The translations under genes were made by a program, and so were the position numbers. The notes beneath the pieces were generated by a model, which was given only the letters and a program-made list of their open reading frames with translations, did not search any database and was not told where the DNA came from. From a virus: a stretch of DNA of 26,737 nt. How positions within the stretch are numbered: the stretch's first letter is position 1; every line of letters starts with the position of its first letter. Where the stretch lies: positions 1-26,737 of the IMG/VR virus record IMGVR_UViG_3300013372_001917; one strand, given 5' to 3'. This document shows positions 17,427 through 26,737 of this stretch, piece after piece.

Positions 17427-17981
17427 TTAAATCCAGTAACCTGTAGCTAAATACCTAGAATTTTTAGTACCAGGCTCAGAGGCAATCCTGTAGTCTGAGG
17501 GATATATTAAAAGGCTTCCAGCTTCGGGTTTTAAAGTTTTTCCTGTATTTTCAAATTTGACTTCTCCTCCATCGTAAGAAGAATTAATATACATTTTTGC
17601 TGTATACTTGCCATTAGGCAAATCACTGTCGCCAAAACCCTCGTAGTACTTTCTCAAAAGATAATTGGGCTCTAGCTTTACGGGACCGTCTATGTTGTTG
17701 TATATCTTATATTGAGTAAAGCAATGATGAAAAGTTGCTTTTAAGTTGTTAATTATAAACAAGCTTCTTGTATCTACAACACTGTCTTGTTCAGAAAAAT
17801 TCGAAGAAATCTTTTTTTCTGAGAAAGAGTCTTGATGCTCCCATTTTTTGATTAAGGAGTTATTCGTGTTTGTATTACTCTCCGTGTCTTCAATAAATCC
17901 AATATAGTTACCAATCTCTTGAAGGCAATAAGTAAAATAAAAAACTTTTGGTGCCATTTCTTGAAACACATACATTGCCAT
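17427..17981 (-). CDS. degenerate 2OG-oxygenase-fold paralogue, probably without catalysis
   Basis: I start this at the ATG at 17981 (MAMYVFQEMAPKVFYF), nine bases after the preceding stop. An ATG at 18017 would overlap that gene by 26 bases. The 184-aa product aligns with the preceding oxygenases: KVFYFTYCL with KVYYYKN, EDTESN with EETESE, AKMYINSSYDGGEVKF with VMYLNDDYEGGELSF, and LKPEAGSLLIYPS with LKPEAGSVIIFPS. The iron site is gone. The segment that should carry HxD reads EGFGDSDLPNGK with no His, and the distal His position falls in YRIASEPGTKN. An Arg (NSRYLATGYW) remains where the co-substrate-binding Lys lies in its relatives. The frame is intact to the normal C-terminus, so it looks like a maintained non-enzymatic fold rather than a decaying gene. 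Confidence 0.7.
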   Translation of the reverse strand: MAMYVFQEMAPKVFYFTYCLQEIGNYIGFIEDTESNTNTNNSLIKKWEHQDSFSEKKISSNFSEQDSVVDTRSLFIINNLKATFHHCFTQYKIYNNIDGPVKLEPNYLLRKYYEGFGDSDLPNGKYTAKMYINSSYDGGEVKFENTGKTLKPEAGSLLIYPSDYRIASEPGTKNSRYLATGYWI

Positions 17982-17991
17982 TTGATAACCT

Positions 17992-18753
17992 TTATTCTGG
18001 AACAAAGACTCCGTCAATAAACGAGCCTTTATTCAACCAAAATGACGGAACCATGTATTTGGATCCGCTTTTTACTAAATGTGCTGTGTGACTGTATGGA
18101 GGCTCTGAAGGAAAAATAATTACACTACCTGCTTCTGGCTTTAAAGAAAAAGTAACTCTTTCTTTATTCCTAGGGTCACTTAATTCTTCGGCAGCTGCAA
18201 ATTCTGTTGAAGTCAAAACTCCATCTTTAATACTAAATGACAATTCTCCACCTTCATAGTCATCGTTTAAATACATTACCAAAGAATACTTTAATCTCTT
18301 GTCGCCTTCTTGTTGATCAAAATGGGATCCCATAAATGTTCCAGCTTCATAACGCTTGATAGCCGTGTCTGTCATTAAAATTAATTTAGACTCTTCATTT
18401 ACTTTTTCAGCATAATCTAGGCAAACATTTTTGAAGCCATCAAAAATTTCATTAAATATGTATTTAGAGTCTTCTATAATATCTTCTGGGCATTTTTGCA
18501 AAATTTCATCCAGCTTTAACATTTTAATTCTTTTATGGCTTCCATAAACATACATTTCTCCGCTACATGCGCTCCACTCTTCCCAGGGCGTAATGAACTT
18601 TGAATATTTTTCTGATTCCGTTTCTTCAATTAACTTAACTAAATTTTTTGGATCAGATACTACATTTTTGTAATAATAAACCTTATCGTGCAATTTTTCA
18701 GATATCATTTGTTCTCCTTCTAATACATTCTTAATTATACCACTGTCTATCAT
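17992..18753 (-). CDS. 2-oxoglutarate/Fe(II) dioxygenase (prolyl hydroxylase-like)
   Basis: This encodes 253 aa from the ATG at 18753, which overlaps the preceding stop (ATGA). A second ATG at 18708 (MISEKLHDKVYYYKN) has a much better GAAGGAG site and may be the real start. The P4H-type beta-helix carries His144-x-Asp146 (GSHFDQQEG), the conserved MYLNDDYEGGELSF strand-turn, KPEAGSVIIFPS, distal His222 (YSHTAH) and Lys232 for the 2OG carboxylate. It should hydroxylate a protein or other substrate using Fe(II), oxygen and 2OG. It is the closest relative of the preceding gene product: the metal ligands fall at the same residue numbers, which indicates a tandem duplication. The substrate is unknown. 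Confidence 0.85.
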   Translation of the reverse strand: MIDSGIIKNVLEGEQMISEKLHDKVYYYKNVVSDPKNLVKLIEETESEKYSKFITPWEEWSACSGEMYVYGSHKRIKMLKLDEILQKCPEDIIEDSKYIFNEIFDGFKNVCLDYAEKVNEESKLILMTDTAIKRYEAGTFMGSHFDQQEGDKRLKYSLVMYLNDDYEGGELSFSIKDGVLTSTEFAAAEELSDPRNKERVTFSLKPEAGSVIIFPSEPPYSHTAHLVKSGSKYMVPSFWLNKGSFIDGVFVPE

Positions 18754-19559
18754 TTAAATAAATCTTCTTTATCTGGGTATACAAACTCTAGTTGAAAATC
18801 TGGGTCTTGTTTAAAAAGAACATCCTCTCCAGATGGATCTATCCAGAACATTGGTAGCATATACTTCCATCCAGACTTGACTTCGTGTGCAGTGTGACTG
18901 AATGGAGATGGTGATGGGAATATCACAATGCTACCAGCTTCAGGCTTAATATAGAAGTCGTACAATCCTTCATTTTGAGGATCAAGTATGTCTCCCTGCA
19001 AAGCTCTTTCTGTTCCAGTTATAATTCCTTCGCTTATGCTAAATGATAGCTCTCCGCCTTCGTAGTCGTCATTTGGCCATACAACTAAAGAGTAAAGTAG
19101 TCTTGTGTCGCCTTCTTGAGAGTCATGATGAACTCCCATATAGTTACCAGCTCTATATCTGTGAACACCAAACTGTTCCAAAAGAATAAGCTCTTTATCT
19201 ATCTGCTGCTCTTTTTTATAGTCTTCACATACCGCTTTTATAGCGTTAAACAATGGATCTCTTATATCAATAAAACGCTGCTTTGTTTCTTCGGAAACAT
19301 CTTTATCTATATTATAAACGCTATTCAGCAGGCAAAGCTTTTTGTATCCATAAACATATGGGTGACCCATAGATCTGTTTTCATCTACATCCCATTGGTT
19401 CCAGGGAGTAATTATTGAATAAAGCTCTTCGTGATTTTCAGAATCATTTACAAGATCTAGCCACTCTTTTACGTTTGGTATAGCATTTCTATAATAATAA
19501 ACTTGTGGATGAAGCTCTTCTCTAATCATTCCGTTTTCTAGTACAGTAGTCTTTGTCAT
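18750..19559 (-). CDS. 2-oxoglutarate/Fe(II) dioxygenase (prolyl hydroxylase-like)
   Basis: This 269-aa protein starts MTKTTVLENGMIREELHPQVYYYRN with AGGAG seven bases upstream. The iron and co-substrate residues are all present: His144-x-Asp146 (GVHHDSQEG), WPNDDYEGGELSF, KPEAGSIVIFPS, distal His222 (FSHTAH) and Lys232. It matches the next gene product along its whole length (ELHPQVYYYRN with KLHDKVYYYKN; TPWNQW with TPWEEW), so the two arose by duplication. It has a slightly longer C-terminal tail (DVLFKQDPDFQLEFVYPDKED). There is no signal peptide or membrane segment, so it acts in the host cytoplasm during infection or inside virions. The substrate cannot be read from sequence. Confidence 0.86.
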   Translation of the reverse strand: MTKTTVLENGMIREELHPQVYYYRNAIPNVKEWLDLVNDSENHEELYSIITPWNQWDVDENRSMGHPYVYGYKKLCLLNSVYNIDKDVSEETKQRFIDIRDPLFNAIKAVCEDYKKEQQIDKELILLEQFGVHRYRAGNYMGVHHDSQEGDTRLLYSLVVWPNDDYEGGELSFSISEGIITGTERALQGDILDPQNEGLYDFYIKPEAGSIVIFPSPSPFSHTAHEVKSGWKYMLPMFWIDPSGEDVLFKQDPDFQLEFVYPDKEDLFK

Positions 19560-20317
19560 TTTGTTTCTCCTATTTTTAAAGCAACTTCTTTTTTAGCAGT
19601 TTGATCTGGTCCTGGTTTTAGTCTTTCACCTTTTGCTTTAAGTTCTGCCCATTTTTCTGCATCCTCTGCTTGTCTTTTTCTTTGTTCCGCAATATCTTCT
19701 TCCCAATTTTTTTGTTTATCTTCGCTATAATCAGATTCTTCATTATCCCAAAATGAACCAATTGTCCACCTTTCACCCTTTGTAATCATTTGAACCTCAT
19801 GAATATTTTCATGACCACCAGCAAAAGCTGCTAGAGTTCCTGTTTTAGGCTGAAGGGTAATTGGATGATCTCTAAAGTTAAGCGCACCGCCTTCAAAATC
19901 TTCATTAAGGTATAGAAATGCCGCCCACTTGCTTCTTTCAAATGAGTTATACTCTGGGGAGTCTATTGGAGTGTTATCAGAATGGTATCCAGCATAAGCA
20001 CCTTCTATCCATTTTTGTGCATGATAACTTACTAGCTTTACTTTGTCTCCGCGACAAATAGCCACGGCCTCTTGAATTTTATCTTGAAGATCAGTAAAAA
20101 AATTATTTTCAAAACCAAATTTTTCTTTTTCTTCATTATCTGGTAGGTTGGAAGCAAAGGAGTCGTAAAAAGAAATTGGTGCCCAAAGAATAGTATCTTT
20201 TTCAGCACAATCTTTCCAATATTTAATTACGTTAGAACACTCTTCTTCAGTAAGAAAATTTTCAAAAAACACAATGTCTTGTTTTACACGATTTTGAGTT
20301 TCTAGATTAAATGGCAT
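19556..20317 (-). CDS. 2-oxoglutarate/Fe(II) dioxygenase with charged C-terminal tail
   Basis: This 253-aa protein starts MPFNLETQNRVKQDIVFFENFL; AAAGGA lies nine bases before the ATG, and the start overlaps the preceding gene by 11 bases. The oxygenase core shows His112-x-Asp114 (GYHSDNTP), AFLYLNEDFEGGALNF, LQPKTGTLAAFAGG, a distal His at 173 (NIHEVQ; His169 is an alternative) and Arg183 (GERWTIGSFW). The FFENFLTEEEC opening is typical of P4H-like enzymes. About 60 residues after the core are highly charged and helical (NWEEDIAEQRKRQAEDAEKW), then Lys/Pro-rich. They could be a binding tail for a partner or for nucleic acid. It is more distant from its neighbours than the two genes that follow it. 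Confidence 0.83.
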   Translation of the reverse strand: MPFNLETQNRVKQDIVFFENFLTEEECSNVIKYWKDCAEKDTILWAPISFYDSFASNLPDNEEKEKFGFENNFFTDLQDKIQEAVAICRGDKVKLVSYHAQKWIEGAYAGYHSDNTPIDSPEYNSFERSKWAAFLYLNEDFEGGALNFRDHPITLQPKTGTLAAFAGGHENIHEVQMITKGERWTIGSFWDNEESDYSEDKQKNWEEDIAEQRKRQAEDAEKWAELKAKGERLKPGPDQTAKKEVALKIGETK

Positions 20318-21161
20318 TTAAGTTAATCCTTTCTAATTTTTTAAGTTCTTCATAGTTTATCGTTTGATAAGCTCCAGATTTTCTTTCCTGTTTAGTTCTA
20401 GCAATTTCCATTTCTTTCCAAATTTCCCGACCATATAGCTTTTCATTCTCTAACCATTCTGGTGATCCAGGATAAAATCTAACCCAGTGATTTCTAATAA
20501 AATACTTTGGGGTGCCTTTTACTTTTTCAACTCCGTGCATATAGAATTGTCCAGAGTCAGAAAGAAAGTCTGGATCTCCTGCTGGGAATAACAAAATATC
20601 GCCTTTTTCTGGCTTATAATAAAAAGTTTTATTGTCTACTAAAAATGTAAGCCCGCCGCCTTCGTAGTCTCCATTTAAATACATGGTACATGTAAACGTA
20701 AACTTATATCCTCTAAACTCATGATAGTCTCTTTGATAGTCTGTGTGAACGTGCATAGCCAGGTCTGACTCTTCGATACCACCTTCGACTTCATACTTGC
20801 ATATTGAAGGACCCATTCTTTTCCATAACTGAGTATTCAAGCCATCTTCTTCATTCAAAACTTCTGCGTCAAGATCTAAGGGTACACCAAAGGTATCTGC
20901 ATACTGATTCGTTGTTTTGTTAAACACATCTATAATTTCATCCCAGAGGCGTTTTTCTAGATCTGTTCTTTCGGATGATTCAACTGAGTAATTAATCTGA
21001 TCTGCTTCTTTGCCAAATGTATACCAGCCATGCCAATTTAAAGCGGATCCTTCTGGATTTTGTTCAGAATCTATAATGGTTTTTGTTAACAGATCAATAT
21101 CTTTCCATGGATTTTTAAAAACCCATATCTTTGGATATAATTCTTTATACTCAAGACTCAC
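20307..21161 (-). CDS. 2-oxoglutarate/Fe(II) dioxygenase
   Basis: This 284-aa protein starts at a GTG that overlaps the preceding stop (GTGA), with GGAG about ten bases upstream. The motifs are His139-x-Asp141 (HVHTDYQRD), TCTMYLNGDYEGGGLTF, YYKPEKGDILLFPAG, distal His209 (FYMHGVEKVKG) and Lys219. About 110 residues precede the catalytic part, with a YPKIWVFKNPWKD opening shared in style with the other family members here. About 55 residues follow (SPEWLENEKLYGREIW...), basic and helical. A complete, probably active enzyme; the substrate is unknown. Confidence 0.84.
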   Translation of the reverse strand: MSLEYKELYPKIWVFKNPWKDIDLLTKTIIDSEQNPEGSALNWHGWYTFGKEADQINYSVESSERTDLEKRLWDEIIDVFNKTTNQYADTFGVPLDLDAEVLNEEDGLNTQLWKRMGPSICKYEVEGGIEESDLAMHVHTDYQRDYHEFRGYKFTFTCTMYLNGDYEGGGLTFLVDNKTFYYKPEKGDILLFPAGDPDFLSDSGQFYMHGVEKVKGTPKYFIRNHWVRFYPGSPEWLENEKLYGREIWKEMEIARTKQERKSGAYQTINYEELKKLERINLNAI

Positions 21162-21847
21162 GGCTGTTTATCTCCAGTATGTTCAAGTATTCGCCAGAAG
21201 AATGGTGATGTATATCTTCCTCCATCAATTATTGGTCTTACTCCATGAATGTAGCCTTTGTCTCCAGGGAAAAAATATGCTGAGCCACCAACTGGTTTAA
21301 ATTCAATTCCTTGAATTGGAAAAAAAAGTTCTCCGCCTTCGTAATCATCATTAAAGTAAAACAATGAGGCTAAATCATAGTGTGGGAAATCGTTTGGGGT
21401 TCCAGCATCTGGGCCTTCATGTAACTCTTTGTCAGCGTGAGGGTCTTGCCTGGAACCAACTGGCCATTTAACTATAGCTGGCCCCGTAGGTTGAATTTTA
21501 ACTTTAAAAAATTTTTCTACTTCAATTTGTAACCTATTAATAAGTCCTTCTACAACATCAACAATTGTTGGGTCAGCAGAAATCTGCATTGATCTTTTTG
21601 TGCAAACCCTGTCTGCCCAGGCGTTAGCATCATAAATAACTGTTCCATTTTCGTTAACATGAGAATCAGTTATATCCCAGGTTTTGTTTGTTTTTGCAAA
21701 CTCGGTGAGTCTAATTCTTTCTTCATCTGTTAAAAAATTTTTTAATTCCACAATATTTTCAGGACCACTGCCAAAAAACCCTGAAGGAGTTATTGATGCA
21801 ACTGATTTATAGTTATGATCGTTATTTGTGTTGATTTGCTTTTGCAT
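21158..21847 (-). CDS. 2-oxoglutarate/Fe(II) dioxygenase
   Basis: This 229-aa protein's ATG follows the preceding stop with no gap. Residues 30-50 (ENIVELKNFLTDEERIRLTEF) are the usual P4H-like opening. The active site is His137-x-Asp139 (QDPHADKE), LFYFNDDYEGGELFF, FKPVGGSAYFFPGD, distal His201 (GYIHGVRPI) and Arg211 (GGRYTSPFFW). Arg in place of Lys at the co-substrate position is common in this superfamily. It sits directly behind the DUF6065-like pair and is co-transcribed with the oxygenases that follow. A complete, probably active enzyme. Confidence 0.85.
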   Translation of the reverse strand: MQKQINTNNDHNYKSVASITPSGFFGSGPENIVELKNFLTDEERIRLTEFAKTNKTWDITDSHVNENGTVIYDANAWADRVCTKRSMQISADPTIVDVVEGLINRLQIEVEKFFKVKIQPTGPAIVKWPVGSRQDPHADKELHEGPDAGTPNDFPHYDLASLFYFNDDYEGGELFFPIQGIEFKPVGGSAYFFPGDKGYIHGVRPIIDGGRYTSPFFWRILEHTGDKQP

Positions 21848-22567
21848 TTACCTGTACTTTCTCCTTGTCCAAAAAAGCTTCTTATATACTCCGCCCTCTG
21901 GTTTTCTAAATAAATCAGAGGTTTCTTTTGCTTTTTTCATAATATCACTAGCCGAATAAAAAACTTTTTCTGACTCCCAGTTTTCTCTTTTAAAGGGAAT
22001 GACTTGCAAATACGGTGTTCCTGCTGGGACTATTCCAGTAAAACCCTTTTTAATAAAAAATGGAAGGAGCCCAGAGGTTGTTACCTTATCGCTATCTATT
22101 ATACCACCGACGGTTAGCCACGGCAAGTCAAAATGATTTATTGGAGGAACATAAATAGAGCTATATCCTTCTGGCAATTCTGGTGCCCAGTTTGCGTACC
22201 AATGGAAATGATTCGCTTCGTAACCTGATGGAACTGCAAAGCCCATAGAAATGCCACGCTCTCCAACAAAGTCATCAAAATTTAATGGAACCTTTGCTTT
22301 TATTCTACCCGATTTTTCATAAAATTCAATGTCACACGGAGTTAATAAAGTATATCCTGTTGTAAAAGTATCTAACATTGCTGGACATGCCTTAAAATTA
22401 AGTGCTTTACCGCCATCAAGTGATTGATTAGAAACAAAGTTGCCATAGAAATCTTTTACGTATACATCAGCGTCGTGCCACCATTTAGGGATAGCTTTTG
22501 CTGCTGGAACGGGAGCAGTTTTTTCTTCATTATAATGCTTGTTTGAATGCCATATAATTTTATTCAT
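21848..22567 (-). CDS. phage protein distantly related to the preceding DUF6065-like protein
   Basis: I place the start at the ATG at 22567 (MNKIIWHSNKHYNEEKT), where ATGA overlaps the preceding stop. The ATG at 22582 would put the AAGGA too close. The 239-aa product has no signal or membrane segment. Several segments line up in order with the preceding gene product: CPAMLDTFTTGYTLLTPCDIEF with its FPVSLSNTLGWGISFPSEISF, and IVPAGTPYLQVIPFKREN with its TIPANTPVAAIIPISLSN. That suggests a common beta-rich, possibly cupin-like, fold. A His-rich NHFHWYANW segment could bind metal. I recognise no named function; position points to work with the oxygenases. Confidence 0.65.
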   Translation of the reverse strand: MNKIIWHSNKHYNEEKTAPVPAAKAIPKWWHDADVYVKDFYGNFVSNQSLDGGKALNFKACPAMLDTFTTGYTLLTPCDIEFYEKSGRIKAKVPLNFDDFVGERGISMGFAVPSGYEANHFHWYANWAPELPEGYSSIYVPPINHFDLPWLTVGGIIDSDKVTTSGLLPFFIKKGFTGIVPAGTPYLQVIPFKRENWESEKVFYSASDIMKKAKETSDLFRKPEGGVYKKLFWTRRKYR

Positions 22568-23298
22568 TTTTGAATACCACATCCTTCTGGTCCTTCAAAA
22601 TAGGTATTGTCCGTTTTTAATTTTAAAGATTTTACTTCATGGGATCCAATTTTATTATTTTTGTGGTCAACAGCATCTCTGTAAAAATTTGTCCATTTAC
22701 CAGATTTATTTATATCACTAACAATTTTCCCATAATCTTCTTTTGGAAAAAAATCTTCTGGAAGATCGTTACGGCCTCTAATTGTTGCAACTGAATTATT
22801 TAAATTTGAAAGAGATATGGGAATAATAGCTGCTACTGGCGTATTTGCTGGGATAGTAATGATTTCGTTTGCCCTTGTAATTTTCCAAGCTACAGGAAAA
22901 GTTCCTTTAAAAAACGATGTGCTTATTAATGTTGTAAATGGCCAGACTCCGTCTATAGGCCAATTTGGAGTAGGCATGGCAAGCATAGACACATTGTCTT
23001 CTGTTTTGATAACCAAGTTTGTATTAAAACTTAATGTTGCATTTGCTCTTGCAGTAGAAACAAATTGTTTGCCAGACAAAACTTTGACATGAGTATCTGT
23101 TGAGTCTGAAATCCCGTCCCAAATAAAAGATATTTCTGATGGAAAAGATATACCCCAGCCTAAAGTATTTGAAAGACTTACAGGGAAACAATGATAAGCA
23201 TGCTTATCAGTTGTGTCGTCCATCCATTGGCGTCTTGCTCCAAGGGGTTCTAGATTGGCACATTGTTCTGGATATATATTATAAACACTAAAATTCAT
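22564..23298 (-). CDS. DUF6065-like protein
   Basis: This 244-aa protein begins MNFSVYNIYPEQCANLEPLGARRQWMDDT. The YPE...L.PLGARRQWMD opening, the following YHCFPVSLSNTLGWGISFPSEISFIWDG, and the AMPTPNWPIDGVWPFTTLISTSFF and IPANTPVAAIIPIS segments look like the DUF6065 family of phage and bacterial proteins, whose biochemical role is unknown. The family name is from memory of its motifs and was not checked. There is no Shine-Dalgarno of any strength, and the gene follows the first oxygenase stop by eight bases. It sits inside the oxygenase block and has a distant relative directly downstream. Confidence 0.65.
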   Translation of the reverse strand: MNFSVYNIYPEQCANLEPLGARRQWMDDTTDKHAYHCFPVSLSNTLGWGISFPSEISFIWDGISDSTDTHVKVLSGKQFVSTARANATLSFNTNLVIKTEDNVSMLAMPTPNWPIDGVWPFTTLISTSFFKGTFPVAWKITRANEIITIPANTPVAAIIPISLSNLNNSVATIRGRNDLPEDFFPKEDYGKIVSDINKSGKWTNFYRDAVDHKNNKIGSHEVKSLKLKTDNTYFEGPEGCGIQK

Positions 23299-23306
23299 GT
23301 TTAATG

Positions 23307-24008
23307 TTAATCTTTCATAGACAAGCTTGACATAAATTGTCTATAAAATTGCTCGTTGTGTGTAGCATCATTATAATCTGTCATTGTAACAATTGAATAT
23401 TTTAATCCAGATTTTACTGGTAATGCCGCATGGGAAAATAAAAATGTTGAAGGGAATATATATAAATCTCCTGCAGTAGGTTTGATTGTTAAATCAAACT
23501 TATCAAATCTTAGCCCACCTTCTTCGTAGTCATCATTAATATATGCAACCATTGATACTGTTGATATATATGACCAACCATGATCTGCGTGATAAGAAAA
23601 ATGTTGTCCTGGTCCATATTTAATAAAATTCATAGCTTCCCAATATTTCATTTCAATTTTATAAAATGAGCAGTAATCTGCTAAAGCAATTTTTTGAGAA
23701 TCATACACATCTTGCCAAATAGAGTCTACGTCTTTATTGTATTTGTTAGATGGTTCGTCTGGATTAAACTTTTTCCATTTAAAATCTACGCAATCCCTAT
23801 AGTCAGGCATTTTTTCTCTATATCCAACTGTTGCTTCTTTCCAGGTATGCATACCATTTGAGCTAGATATTGCTTCTTCAAGCCTATTTATAATATTTAG
23901 TTCTGGCTTTATTGCATTTCTATAAACCCAAATTCCTGGGGCAAGCTCTTCTTTTGATGAATATGCTAAATCCATTAATCTGTTCTGCTCTCTATTACTG
24001 CTAGACAT
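23307..24008 (-). CDS. 2-oxoglutarate/Fe(II) dioxygenase, first of the block
   Basis: This 233-aa protein starts at the ATG at 24008, which has no clear ribosome site. An ATG at 23975 (MDLAYSSKEELAPGIWVYRN) is an alternative. The core is complete: His140-x-Asp142 (SYHADHGWS), MVAYINDDYEEGGLRF, IKPTAGDLYIFPS, distal His193 (FSHAALPVKSG) and Lys203. The ELAPGIWVYRNAI opening is shared in style with others in the block. It lies 47 bases after a fibre-accessory gene and before the DUF6065-like gene, so it links the adhesin genes to the modification genes. The substrate is unknown; prolyl hydroxylation of a protein is the family precedent. Confidence 0.85.
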   Translation of the reverse strand: MSSSNREQNRLMDLAYSSKEELAPGIWVYRNAIKPELNIINRLEEAISSSNGMHTWKEATVGYREKMPDYRDCVDFKWKKFNPDEPSNKYNKDVDSIWQDVYDSQKIALADYCSFYKIEMKYWEAMNFIKYGPGQHFSYHADHGWSYISTVSMVAYINDDYEEGGLRFDKFDLTIKPTAGDLYIFPSTFLFSHAALPVKSGLKYSIVTMTDYNDATHNEQFYRQFMSSLSMKD

Positions 24009-24055: not shown

Positions 24056-24499
24056 TTATTGAGGAGGATTAAAACTTGTACCATCCCAAACAAATCCTGG
24101 TGCAACTATTTGATTTTCAGTAAGTTCAATAATTTTTATTGAACTGTTTAAATATGTTGTAAGCATTTTGTCCTCTATGGAGCTTTTATCATTTGCAAAA
24201 ACAATTAAAAGTTTTGAATCAGCAAGTACTGCTTTTTTATTTGGAAACACGTTTGACATAGGATACACTTGTTCTGTTCCGCCAGTAAAACCGTTTCCAT
24301 TCCAAACGCCGTTCTTTTTTATAGATTCACTATCAATGCTTGAAATGTCTACCAAAGAAATAACAGCATTAGACAAGACGGCATCTTTAATTAAGTCATC
24401 TAACTCAATTGTTTGTGGACTAGATGCATCAATTCTTAGTATTTTAAAAACTTTCCATGAATTAACATCATCTTGACTTGCAAATGCAAAATTGCTCAT
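24056..24499 (-). CDS. small fibre-accessory-like protein, unknown function
   Basis: This 147-aa protein starts MSNFAFASQDDVNSWKVFKI; AAGGAG lies seven bases before the ATG at 24499. The longer frame from 24553 would run through a hairpin and is rejected. The C-terminus, APGFVWDGTSFNPPQ, and an internal NGVWNGNGFTGG are of the type often ending small proteins encoded next to phage tail fibre genes. The middle (LLIVFANDKSSIEDKMLTTYL) is alpha/beta. It might be a fibre chaperone or a small fibre part. It is the first gene after a hairpin and a TGATACAAT box, so it may head the transcript that contains the oxygenases. Confidence 0.6.
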   Translation of the reverse strand: MSNFAFASQDDVNSWKVFKILRIDASSPQTIELDDLIKDAVLSNAVISLVDISSIDSESIKKNGVWNGNGFTGGTEQVYPMSNVFPNKKAVLADSKLLIVFANDKSSIEDKMLTTYLNSSIKIIELTENQIVAPGFVWDGTSFNPPQ

Positions 24500-24518
24500 T
24501 ATATTTCTCCTTGTTTTT

Positions 24519-24527
24519 ATTGTATCA
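24519..24527 (-). promoter_or_regulatory. extended -10 candidate at the head of the oxygenase block
   Basis: TGATACAAT is read at 24527-24519 on the minus strand, just after the hairpin and about 20 bases before the ATG at 24499. No convincing -35 is present; that position falls in the hairpin. Confidence 0.3.
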
Positions 24528-24530
24528 TTT

Positions 24531-24556
24531 AGCTTGGGCCCCGTGAGGCCCAAGCT
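24531..24556 (-). terminator. strong hairpin after the (F/H)FPP-repeat gene
   Basis: There is a perfect 10-bp GC-rich inverted repeat, AGCTTGGGCC / GGCCCAAGCT, with a 6-nt loop, starting eight bases after the stop codon at 24564. There is no U-tract on the minus strand, so it acts as a U-less terminator or as an mRNA end stabiliser. Confidence 0.6.
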
Positions 24557-24563
24557 AAACTAA

Positions 24564-25538
24564 TTAGTGGTGGTTACATCCAAAACCGCAGAAGTACGGT
24601 GGGAAGAATGGCGGGAAGAACGGTGGGAAGAACGGTGGGAAGTGTGGTGGGAAGAACGGTGGGAAGAACGGTGGGAAGAATGGTGGGAAGAACGGTGGGA
24701 AGAATGGTGGGAAGAACGGTGGGAAGTGTGGTGGGAAGAACGGTGGGAAGAACGGTGGGAAGAACGGTGGGAAGAATGGCGGGAAGAACGGTGGGAAGAA
24801 TGGTGGGAAGTGTGGTGGGAAGAATGGTGGGAAGAATGGTGGGAAGAACGGTGGGAAGAACGGCGGGAAGTGTGGTGGTGTAAATGTTTGTGGGTCGGAG
24901 GTTGTGGCTCCTAATGATGTTCCATTAGCATTAATTGCAAAAACTGTATATGTTTCAGCGTTTGGAGAAACTGTATCAAATGGAGATGTTGCGTTTGCGG
25001 AAAGCTCTCCCCGTGCACTAGATGTTATTCTAAATGAAGTGATTGCAGAACCACCCGTTGCATTGGCAGAAAATGTAATTCTATCACTACCAGATGCTGG
25101 TACAGGACTTGGGCCAGCTGCACTTGTAGAAGCTGATGCCGATGGTGCTTGAGGAACTGTTGTTATTGAAGTCGATGAAGATGTTGTTGACGCAGAATTT
25201 CCAGCGGCATTAGTAGCTACAACAGTAAATGTATACGCAGTTCCTGATGCTAATCCTTGAAAAGTATAAGAAGTATTACTGTTTCCAGTAACAACTGTAT
25301 ATGTTGCAGGGGATGTTGTAATTGTATAAGATGTTGCTGGTGGAGAAGCTGCTGGCAAAGTCCATGATAAGCTTGCTGCGCCACCAGTTCCTGCGGCAGA
25401 TGCTGCAGAAGTTGTGTTAGCGCTTGCCAAATATGTCCGCCCAGTACCCACATTTGTTGCAGTTAAGGAAGTAACTGCACTTGGTTCTAAGAAGTTATCC
25501 TGTGCTGAGGATTTTCTACCTATTTTCTTATTTGCCAT
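24564..25538 (-). CDS. FN3-type protein with 23 tandem (F/H)FPP units and Cys/His tail
   Basis: This 324-aa protein starts [20 protein letters not shown] with GGGG eight bases upstream. Residues ~19-130 form one fibronectin type III-like domain (AVTSLTAT..., [24 protein letters not shown]). Residues ~130-220 form a second Ig/FN3-like domain. Residues 223-314 are 23 four-residue units, 19 FFPP and 4 HFPP, with His units spaced 5, 7 and 7 apart. The last ten residues are [10 protein letters not shown], with two Cys and two His that could bind metal or cross-link. The repeat would make a stiff, aromatic, proline-rich rod. Location next to the fibre gene suggests a virion surface protein, and it is the neighbour most likely to be hydroxylated on proline. 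No signal peptide. Confidence 0.75.
24598..24873 (-). repeat. 12-bp tandem repeat, 23 units, encoding (F/H)FPP
   Basis: The plus-strand unit is GGTGGGAAGAAC or GGTGGGAAGAAT, with four GGTGGGAAGTGT (or GGC-) variants that change Phe to His. The units are near-identical in DNA with few synonymous changes, so the array is recent or kept uniform by slippage and recombination. It is kept in frame and should vary in copy number. Confidence 0.95.
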
Positions 25539-25567: not shown

Positions 25568-26737
25568 TTATGCTGTCAAGTCTCCAGCTAGCAACCAAGT
25601 GTTTGTTGCAACCTTGGTGAGTGTTGCTGATGAATATGTTGTTCTTAGTGTTAGTCCTGGTGTACGAAGAATTGTAACTGTACCATCTGCTGCTACAAAG
25701 TTTGCGCCAGTTCCTGATGCTTGGTAAAAATCAATTGATGTACCAATTGGAAAGGCTGTTGTTGCATTTGTTGGTATTGTAATTGCTCGTGTACCTGCAA
25801 TTGGGATAAGTTGATCTCTTAGTGCAAGGCCACCTGTTGATAGGTTATATGCTGCTGAGATTTCAGTTCCAATTGTTGTAAGTGATGGTACGCCAGCTTT
25901 TGTTTGAGTTCCGTCTGTAAATGCTACTCCTGCTGCCGCAACTGTAACTGTACCAGTAAATGTTGGTGAGGCAAGTGGTGCTTTTAGGCCAAGACTTGTT
26001 GTTACAGATGTAGCAAAGTTTGCGTCATCTCCAAGTGCTGCAGCAAGTTCATCAAGTGTGTTGAGTGCTGCTGGGGCAGATGCAATTACTGCATTTACTT
26101 GTGCTGTTGCATCTGCAATTGCTTCTGACTTAGCAGTTGCAATTGCTGTAGCCTGTGCTGTAGATACTGGCTTTGCTGAGTCTGCTGTGTTATCAACAGA
26201 TCCAAGCCCAACCATAGTTTTTGTAATTCCTGATACTGTACCAGTAAATGTTGGTGAGGCAAGTGGTGCCTTATCAGCAAGATCGGATGTGAGGCCTGAG
26301 ATCTTAGACTGAGCAATTGCTGCTGATGCGTTAACATCTGCATCTACAATTGTTCCGTTTGCAATCTTAGCTGAAGTTACTGCGCCATCTGCAATCTTTG
26401 CTTCAGTTACTGCATCAGTTGCGAGCTCTGAGCTAGTTACCGATGCTGCAATAATTTCTGCAGTTCCAACTGAATCATCTGACATCATTGATTGAGTAAT
26501 TGTGTTTGCAGGTAGAGTTACTGTTCCTGTAAATGTTGGTGAAGCTAGTGGTGCTTTTAGATCTATTTGGCCTTGTATACTAGATGTTACTCCGTTTAGA
26601 TACCCTATTTCTTGGTTGCTCACATCGCCAATTGAAGTTGATTCTGGAAGAGTTACTGTACCAGTAAGTGTTGGTGAGGCTAGTGGTGCATAGGTGCTAG
26701 CAGCAGTTGCTGAGGCTAGCTTAGCATCGATCTGTCC
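25568..26737 (-). CDS. repeat-built tail fibre protein (N-terminus beyond window)
   Basis: The frame is open from the window edge to TAA at 25570-25568, giving 389 codons; the 5' end is missing. An internal GTG at 26623 is not a real start, because the same repeat structure continues above it. The protein repeats APLASPTFTGTVT-type units four times (one begins YAPLASPTLTGTV). It contains KTMVGLGSVDNTADSAKPVSTAQ, a hallmark of phage tail-fibre and collar-type proteins, and Ala/Thr/Ser-rich helical stretches (VTEAKIADGAVTSAKIANGT). The C-terminal 100 residues (IPIAGTRAITIPTNATTAFPIG..., LRTTYSSATLTKVATNTWLLAG) look like a compact beta tip common in phage fibres. It most likely forms a trimeric receptor-binding fibre. 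Confidence 0.85.
   Translation of the reverse strand, partial: GQIDAKLASATAASTYAPLASPTLTGTVTLPESTSIGDVSNQEIGYLNGVTSSIQGQIDLKAPLASPTFTGTVTLPANTITQSMMSDDSVGTAEIIAASVTSSELATDAVTEAKIADGAVTSAKIANGTIVDADVNASAAIAQSKISGLTSDLADKAPLASPTFTGTVSGITKTMVGLGSVDNTADSAKPVSTAQATAIATAKSEAIADATAQVNAVIASAPAALNTLDELAAALGDDANFATSVTTSLGLKAPLASPTFTGTVTVAAAGVAFTDGTQTKAGVPSLTTIGTEISAAYNLSTGGLALRDQLIPIAGTRAITIPTNATTAFPIGTSIDFYQASGTGANFVAADGTVTILRTPGLTLRTTYSSATLTKVATNTWLLAGDLTA
25947..26690 (-). repeat. four dispersed copies of a fibre-repeat DNA segment
   Basis: About 36 bp with plus-strand text GTACCAGTAAATGTTGGTGA followed by GGCAAGTGGTGC recurs near 25947-25982, 26235-26270, 26517-26553 and 26650-26690, with small differences. 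Each copy encodes the APLASPTFTGTV unit of the fibre and could support recombination between units. Confidence 0.85.

Follow-up and report, generated by a model that had tools for sequence, protein, structure and literature searches.

The window analysed here is a 26.7 kb virus fragment (IMG/VR record IMGVR_UViG_3300013372_001917); it is a contig fragment, as are many of the loci with which it was compared. On its minus strand, a tail fibre-like gene cut by the window end (25568-26737; similar to tail fibre families of PHROG, with E 2e-16 for the top match that carries a name) is followed by a gene coding for an FN3 domain and a Phe-Pro repeat (24564-25538), a gene for a small protein (24056-24553), the gene for 2-oxoglutarate (2OG) oxygenase A (23307-24008; PF13640 E 2.5e-11) and two DUF6065 genes (22564-23298 and 21848-22582). 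Then follow the genes for the 2OG oxygenases A2 (21158-21847; E 5.7e-6), B (20307-21161; E 7.8e-8), C (19556-20317; E 1.3e-9), D (18750-19559; E 2.8e-9), and E (17992-18753; E 3.3e-12), the 2OG-fold pseudoenzyme F (17427-17981), a LamG protein, another small protein, and the portal, and further on those for protease, capsid, head-tail proteins, and tape measure. The nine ORFs between 17427 and 24008 lie end to end, all on the minus strand. An earlier note, made from the sequence alone, had described this stretch as a block of seven 2OG genes; the common strand was confirmed, but the block is interrupted by the two DUF6065 ORFs at 21848 and 22564, which are not 2OG proteins. The small protein between the repeat gene and the first 2OG gene has no Pfam or PHROG match, and distantly similar proteins are encoded at the same place in the relatives L014, L059, and L060.

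The head genes of the window resemble those of Streptomyces phages of the Coruscant type, with proteases that are 45% identical. In a test for Stanwilliamsviridae-like actinophages, the order LamG, small gene, portal, protease, capsid was found to be common to the window and Coruscant; however, phages of the Coruscant type lack the 2OG block. A GC content of 38% together with the actinophage-like head genes suggests an aquatic actinobacterium as host. When isolate phages were searched for DNA similar to the block, there was no match.

Six proteins of the block exceed the curated cut-off (27 bits) of the Pfam family 2OG-FeII_Oxy_3 (PF13640) with E values from 3e-12 to 6e-6, and HxD, the distal His, and the Arg or Lys (Lys in A) are in register in all six. 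Residues H137, D139, H201, and R211 of the core member A2 are invariant in 27 relatives, and the iron triad and the Arg/Lys for 2OG are invariant in A2/C relatives. Most paralogue pairs are 19-30% identical over long alignments, and D and E (18750 and 17992) are 45% identical. With a profile of A2, the best matches in the PDB were 3itq and 5hv0 (E 2e-17), which we take to be the prolyl 4-hydroxylase (P4H) of Bacillus anthracis, and further matches comprised P3H1, PiuC, the P4H of PBCV-1, PHD2, and the lysyl hydroxylase LH3. The enzymes of the block belong to a class related to prolyl hydroxylases, turnover of peptidyl-proline being a prediction. PHROG labels such as DNA endonuclease occur among the matches of the block proteins. 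PF13640-type proteins also carry the names ferrochelatase or DNA endonuclease in public cyanophage annotations and in PHROG, which looks like propagated mislabelling.

With 21.9 bits, protein F stays below the PF13640 cut-off of 27 (phrog_61 E 1e-9). HxD and the distal His, and with them the iron triad, are absent, and the Arg is retained. For its AlphaFold model (pLDDT 81.8), a comparison with PDB structures gave 2OG oxygenases as matches, with E values down to 2e-6; the Mimivirus lysyl hydroxylase is one of them (PDB 6ax6, E 2e-5). The same ligands are lost in close relatives at 42-73% identity, and an orthologue in the relative L337, 36% identical to F, still fits the active-site pattern. 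Since the fold is kept and the losses are common to relatives, with an intact orthologue in L337, F is a retained pseudoenzyme and not a case of recent decay. These HMM matches, the residues in register, and the model of F thus bear out the view of the earlier note that six ORFs carry the full 2OG signature and a seventh keeps only the fold. The start of the degenerate gene had to be revised; it probably lies at 17981, since orthologues begin at that Met.

The DUF6065 proteins were considered as further members of the 2OG fold and rejected, as the model of the protein encoded at 22564-23298 (PF19541 E 6e-33; AlphaFold pLDDT 82.4) gave a dUTPase-like fold instead (Foldseek E 9e-4; VIA-align Z 10.7, rmsd 2.8 over 111 residues); at the sequence level, DUF6065 proteins have no match to dUTPases. 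The second, DUF6065-like protein (21848-22582) belongs to phrog_7084 (E 3e-29). Genes of this type accompany 71 of 73 A2 loci and 44 of the 48 FFPP loci that have three or more 2OG genes, among the matches listed. Haloarchaeal tailed viruses encode distant DUF6065 relatives, and in HRTV-7 the gene is a neighbour of that for thymidylate synthase.

Directly upstream of the array lies a gene (24564-25538) that the earlier note had missed. Its product consists of an FN3 domain (fn3 above cut-off, E 2.1e-13), about 23 Phe-Phe-Pro-Pro units (FFPP or HFPP), and a short Cys/His tail, the repeat being a 12-nt tandem array of 23.3 copies. Of the differences between units, 13 of 21 are synonymous versus 22% expected (p 1e-4), a count complicated by repeat homogenisation, and this excess fits selection on the protein level of the repeat. 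An antisense origin of the FFPP ORF, which would make it an artefact, was considered, but it is disfavoured by the FN3 domain in the same frame and by the excess of synonymous differences. The scan for FFPP loci described below contained, among the matches listed, 7 loci with a longer opposing ORF and 14 without a sense FFPP ORF, all excluded from the strict counts. In Pro-aromatic segments comprising 21,298 residues, Pro and Phe account for 30% each, PFFP, FFPP, PPFF, and FPPF are the commonest tetrapeptides, and the residue before Pro is F or P in 84%. Across relatives, units of the types FFPP, FFPYFP, and FFSPPGFF or FFGPPGFF are found, usually after FN3 domains. The Gly-X-Y repeat of collagen is absent from the window protein, whose FFPP units contain no Gly; among repeat proteins, a Pfam collagen match occurs only in L024 and is weak (23.3 bits versus a cut-off of 27.2).

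At the C-terminus of some relatives (L024, L033, L034, L037, L069, L072, and L081), the Phe-Pro repeat is followed by a Hint or bacterial intein-like (BIL) domain, which was judged by eye in L024 and L034. A profile of five aligned C-termini matches the BIL structure 2lwy (E 7e-7), and the PT-HINT match in L069 (E 9e-5) is below the cut-off. This domain, which is absent from the repeat protein of the window, could cleave or ligate the repeat protein of those relatives. A search with the repeat protein of L033 gave no match in isolates. On contig L111 (positions 1-785), the gene directly before LamG and portal codes for a Phe-Pro repeat protein that apparently includes a Hint domain; this 7 kb contig, truncated upstream, has no 2OG gene. 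Near the repeat gene of L151, L161, and L171, and in 21 loci of the survey that counted the DUF6065-type genes, there is a gene for a small protein of about 80 aa that is rich in Cys (motif CPE...C..C).

The Phe-Pro repeat gene and the 2OG genes are paired with conserved linkage and gene order. IMG/VR was scanned, blind to oxygenases, for DNA encoding a 12-residue FFPP-type sequence, with GPT-repeat fibres as control; the counts from this and the following viral scans are samples and not censuses, and the FFPP, FFxPPG, and A2 scans have some contigs in common. Among the matches listed, 2OG genes were present at 83 of 120 FFPP loci versus 10 of 120 GPT-repeat fibre loci (odds ratio 24.7, p 1.5e-23), or 301 genes in 1,016 kb versus 13 in 1,078 kb, as detected with a profile that was built from the array family itself and may miss distant 2OG proteins. 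Where 3 kb downstream and a sense ORF were available, 51 of 59 FFPP loci have a 2OG gene (46 of 53 after clustering), and 8 of the 59 have none nearby, again among the matches listed; the repeat protein may not always need oxygenases, or their genes may sit elsewhere. The nearest same-strand 2OG gene lies downstream of the FFPP repeat gene in 55 of 55 listed cases, and the nearest 2OG gene is on the opposite strand at 9 of the 64 listed FFPP loci that combine a 2OG gene with a sense ORF. For a second motif, FFxPPGFFxPPG, 62 of 66 loci among the matches listed have 2OG genes, and 59 of 66 have at least three. The nearest same-strand 2OG gene is downstream in 79 of 81 such loci, at a median distance of 69 bp, and in 12 loci the nearest 2OG gene is on the opposite strand, both among the matches listed.

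In the reverse direction, an alignment of A2 served as query. A same-strand Pro-aromatic ORF was found upstream in 35 of the 35 listed loci with 6 kb of upstream DNA, representing 31 DNA clusters and carrying 3-11 2OG genes each (median 7), whereas such an ORF was present in 1 of 120 controls and at 0 of 56 bacterial-genome loci, nearly all of them with fewer than three 2OG genes. As the A2 loci form one orthogroup, this test measures that lineage, and the FFPP and FFxPPG scans are broader. The single 2OG genes of the cyanophages and methylophages ACG-2014f, Melnitz, and S-T4 have no Phe-Pro partner nearby. The proposal of the earlier note that the battery is a dedicated modification system gains support from the linkage to the repeat gene across IMG/VR.

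A scan for portal relatives recovered at least 80 loci, at least 22 of them with three or more 2OG genes at the same place before the LamG gene. Because it recurs in many related contigs, the array is not due to chance. Among the matches listed, a Pro-aromatic ORF is present in 14 of the 22 loci with at least three 2OG genes versus 1 of 58 others; several array-bearing loci without it are cut off upstream, and all array-bearing relatives that reach far enough upstream have a Pro-rich aromatic ORF before the first 2OG gene. An exception is L069, cut off at its upstream end, in which the Pro-rich ORF is flanked by 2OG genes on both sides. Where relatives have no array, its position is taken by fibre or spike genes. 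A tree was built of 72 proteins encoded by 12 phages; in it, A2 and C are each recovered as a single, well-supported orthogroup represented in 12 of 12 phages, orthogroup A likewise occurs in 12 of 12, and B and D/E are common to many. The paralogues are ancient and have been kept apart, which speaks for action at different sites or steps rather than for dosage and agrees with the distinct roles that the earlier note had postulated. Isolates have essentially no orthologues of A2 and C; the only matches, all weak, came from cyanophages and marine single cells.

We consider it likely that the block is a self-contained protein-hydroxylation module, in which prolyl hydroxylases would modify a Phe-Pro repeat made by the phage itself, probably as a fibre or surface brush. 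We infer from the sequences that the repeat is the substrate, that its prolines become hydroxylated, and that the product is located on the virion and may affect adsorption. Linkage is no proof of substrate identity, and both partners could act on a third one. With some likelihood, though clearly less, the oxygenases might modify other virion proteins, such as the tail fibre or the LamG protein, or the host surface, the Phe-Pro protein being merely co-inherited in a host-recognition cassette. The module does lie in a cassette that is exchanged between phages and is bordered by fibre genes and LamG; at this place, array-free relatives encode different fibre or spike proteins, and 2OG arrays of S-CAM8 adjoin a tail fibre without any Phe-Pro repeat. 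Yet the link to the repeat gene extends over many DNA clusters and both types of repeat, the order is fixed and the distance often less than 100 bp, and GPT-repeat fibres show no such link.

Rather improbable seems a role as auxiliary metabolic genes that reprogram 2-oxoglutarate, nitrogen, or iron metabolism of the host. This is the published reading for cyanophage S-SCSM1 with its 24 2OG genes, but that same paper states that functions were not specifically investigated (PMC9602691). Lowering 2OG would require neither six ancient conserved paralogues nor a fixed position behind a repeat protein, and the array lies among late structural genes. Hydroxylation or hypermodification of DNA bases, which the earlier note had kept as an alternative, is very improbable: some 2OG families (TET/JBP) do act in this way, and labels like DNA endonuclease occur among the PHROG matches, but no TET/JBP or AlkB family was found among Pfam matches up to E 0.1, no DNA-modification gene was recognised within the window, and proteins are the substrates of the closest relatives by profile and by structure. 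From the range of targets originally envisaged (fibre, capsid, host surface, or DNA), protein therefore stands, given the prolyl and lysyl hydroxylase relatives in the PDB, and the genetic evidence favours the neighbouring Phe-Pro protein.

If hydroxylation of the repeat is assumed, the phage would make a late protein with an FN3 domain followed by a long Phe-Phe-Pro-Pro repeat, and during late gene expression the downstream oxygenases would use Fe(II), 2-oxoglutarate, and O2 to hydroxylate its prolines. Several enzymes might be kept for different proline contexts (F-P-P and P-P-F; in relatives also P-P-G and units with Y, S, or A), or the sites might be modified one after another in a set sequence, and pseudoenzyme F may present or hold the substrate. 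Hydroxylation would render a very hydrophobic polypeptide more polar and shift it towards an extended conformation of the polyproline type; since unmodified (FFPP)n should be strongly hydrophobic, the modification could plausibly serve solubility and shape. The product would be a fibre or surface brush, to which further groups could perhaps be attached. More tentatively, and with slightly less than even chances, phages might share a widespread hydroxylated aromatic-proline biopolymer, in which specialised hydroxylases and a pseudoenzyme serve different positions of one repeat protein and the intein-like domain of some relatives could cleave or attach it.

Parts of such a system have precedents. 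The P4H of Bacillus anthracis is associated with collagen-like GXT proteins; it is a single bacterial enzyme, whereas the candidate substrate in the window is aromatic and non-collagenous. Mimivirus makes both a hydroxylating enzyme and its presumed collagen fibre substrate, but there lysine in collagen repeats is modified and the host is eukaryotic. The prolyl 4-hydroxylase vCPH of PBCV-1 (PDB 5c5t; profile match E 2e-10), to be seen together with the proline-rich or collagen-like proteins of chloroviruses, is virus-encoded and has the P4H fold, like the window enzymes; it differs in belonging to a eukaryotic giant virus and in that its substrate is not a Phe-Pro repeat encoded directly before the enzymes. 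To our knowledge, PBCV-1 has no hydroxylase array of the kind found in the window. A Baltic study cites evidence for hydroxyproline in viral proteins and calls the viral use of prolyl 4-hydroxylase still cryptic (PMC9301287).

The genomes of T4-like cyanophages also contain large numbers of divergent 2OG paralogues, part of them grouped near tail fibre genes, and ten of the 2OG genes of S-SCSM1 are of PF13640 type (PMC9602691). By MS, 45 virion proteins of S-SCSM1 have been identified. In contrast to the window, these sets are described as auxiliary metabolic genes with no substrate named, and no FFPP protein was found at the loci examined. In S-SCSM1 (locus L333, 4180-5445), two groups of annotated 2OG genes flank the gene for a short tail fibre protein, whose insert of 250 residues is rich in Arg (30%) and Pro (12%) and might represent another type of substrate. 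According to other reports, 2OG proteins similar to human EGLN3 are widespread in phages (PMC12774648), and pelagiphage 2OG genes lie near genes annotated as ferrochelatase (PMC9599517). A Phe-Pro repeat partner is not named in the accessible portions of these four papers (PMC9602691, PMC9301287, PMC12774648, PMC9599517), nor was a 2OG/Phe-Pro substrate pairing found in the open-access literature on phage prolyl hydroxylation with tail fibres. Large 2OG sets of cyanophages are thus already known, and for the paired phage-made Phe-Pro substrate we found no previous report.

The 2OG oxygenases of aquatic phages are common, unexplained, and usually filed under auxiliary metabolism. A paired substrate made by the phage makes the question of their function directly testable with few genes. 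If the reading as a biopolymer is true, phages would have an equivalent of the extensins of plants or the adhesive proteins of mussels. If confirmed, hydroxyproline would become part of phage virion chemistry, and Phe-Pro repeats would constitute a new class of fibre material.
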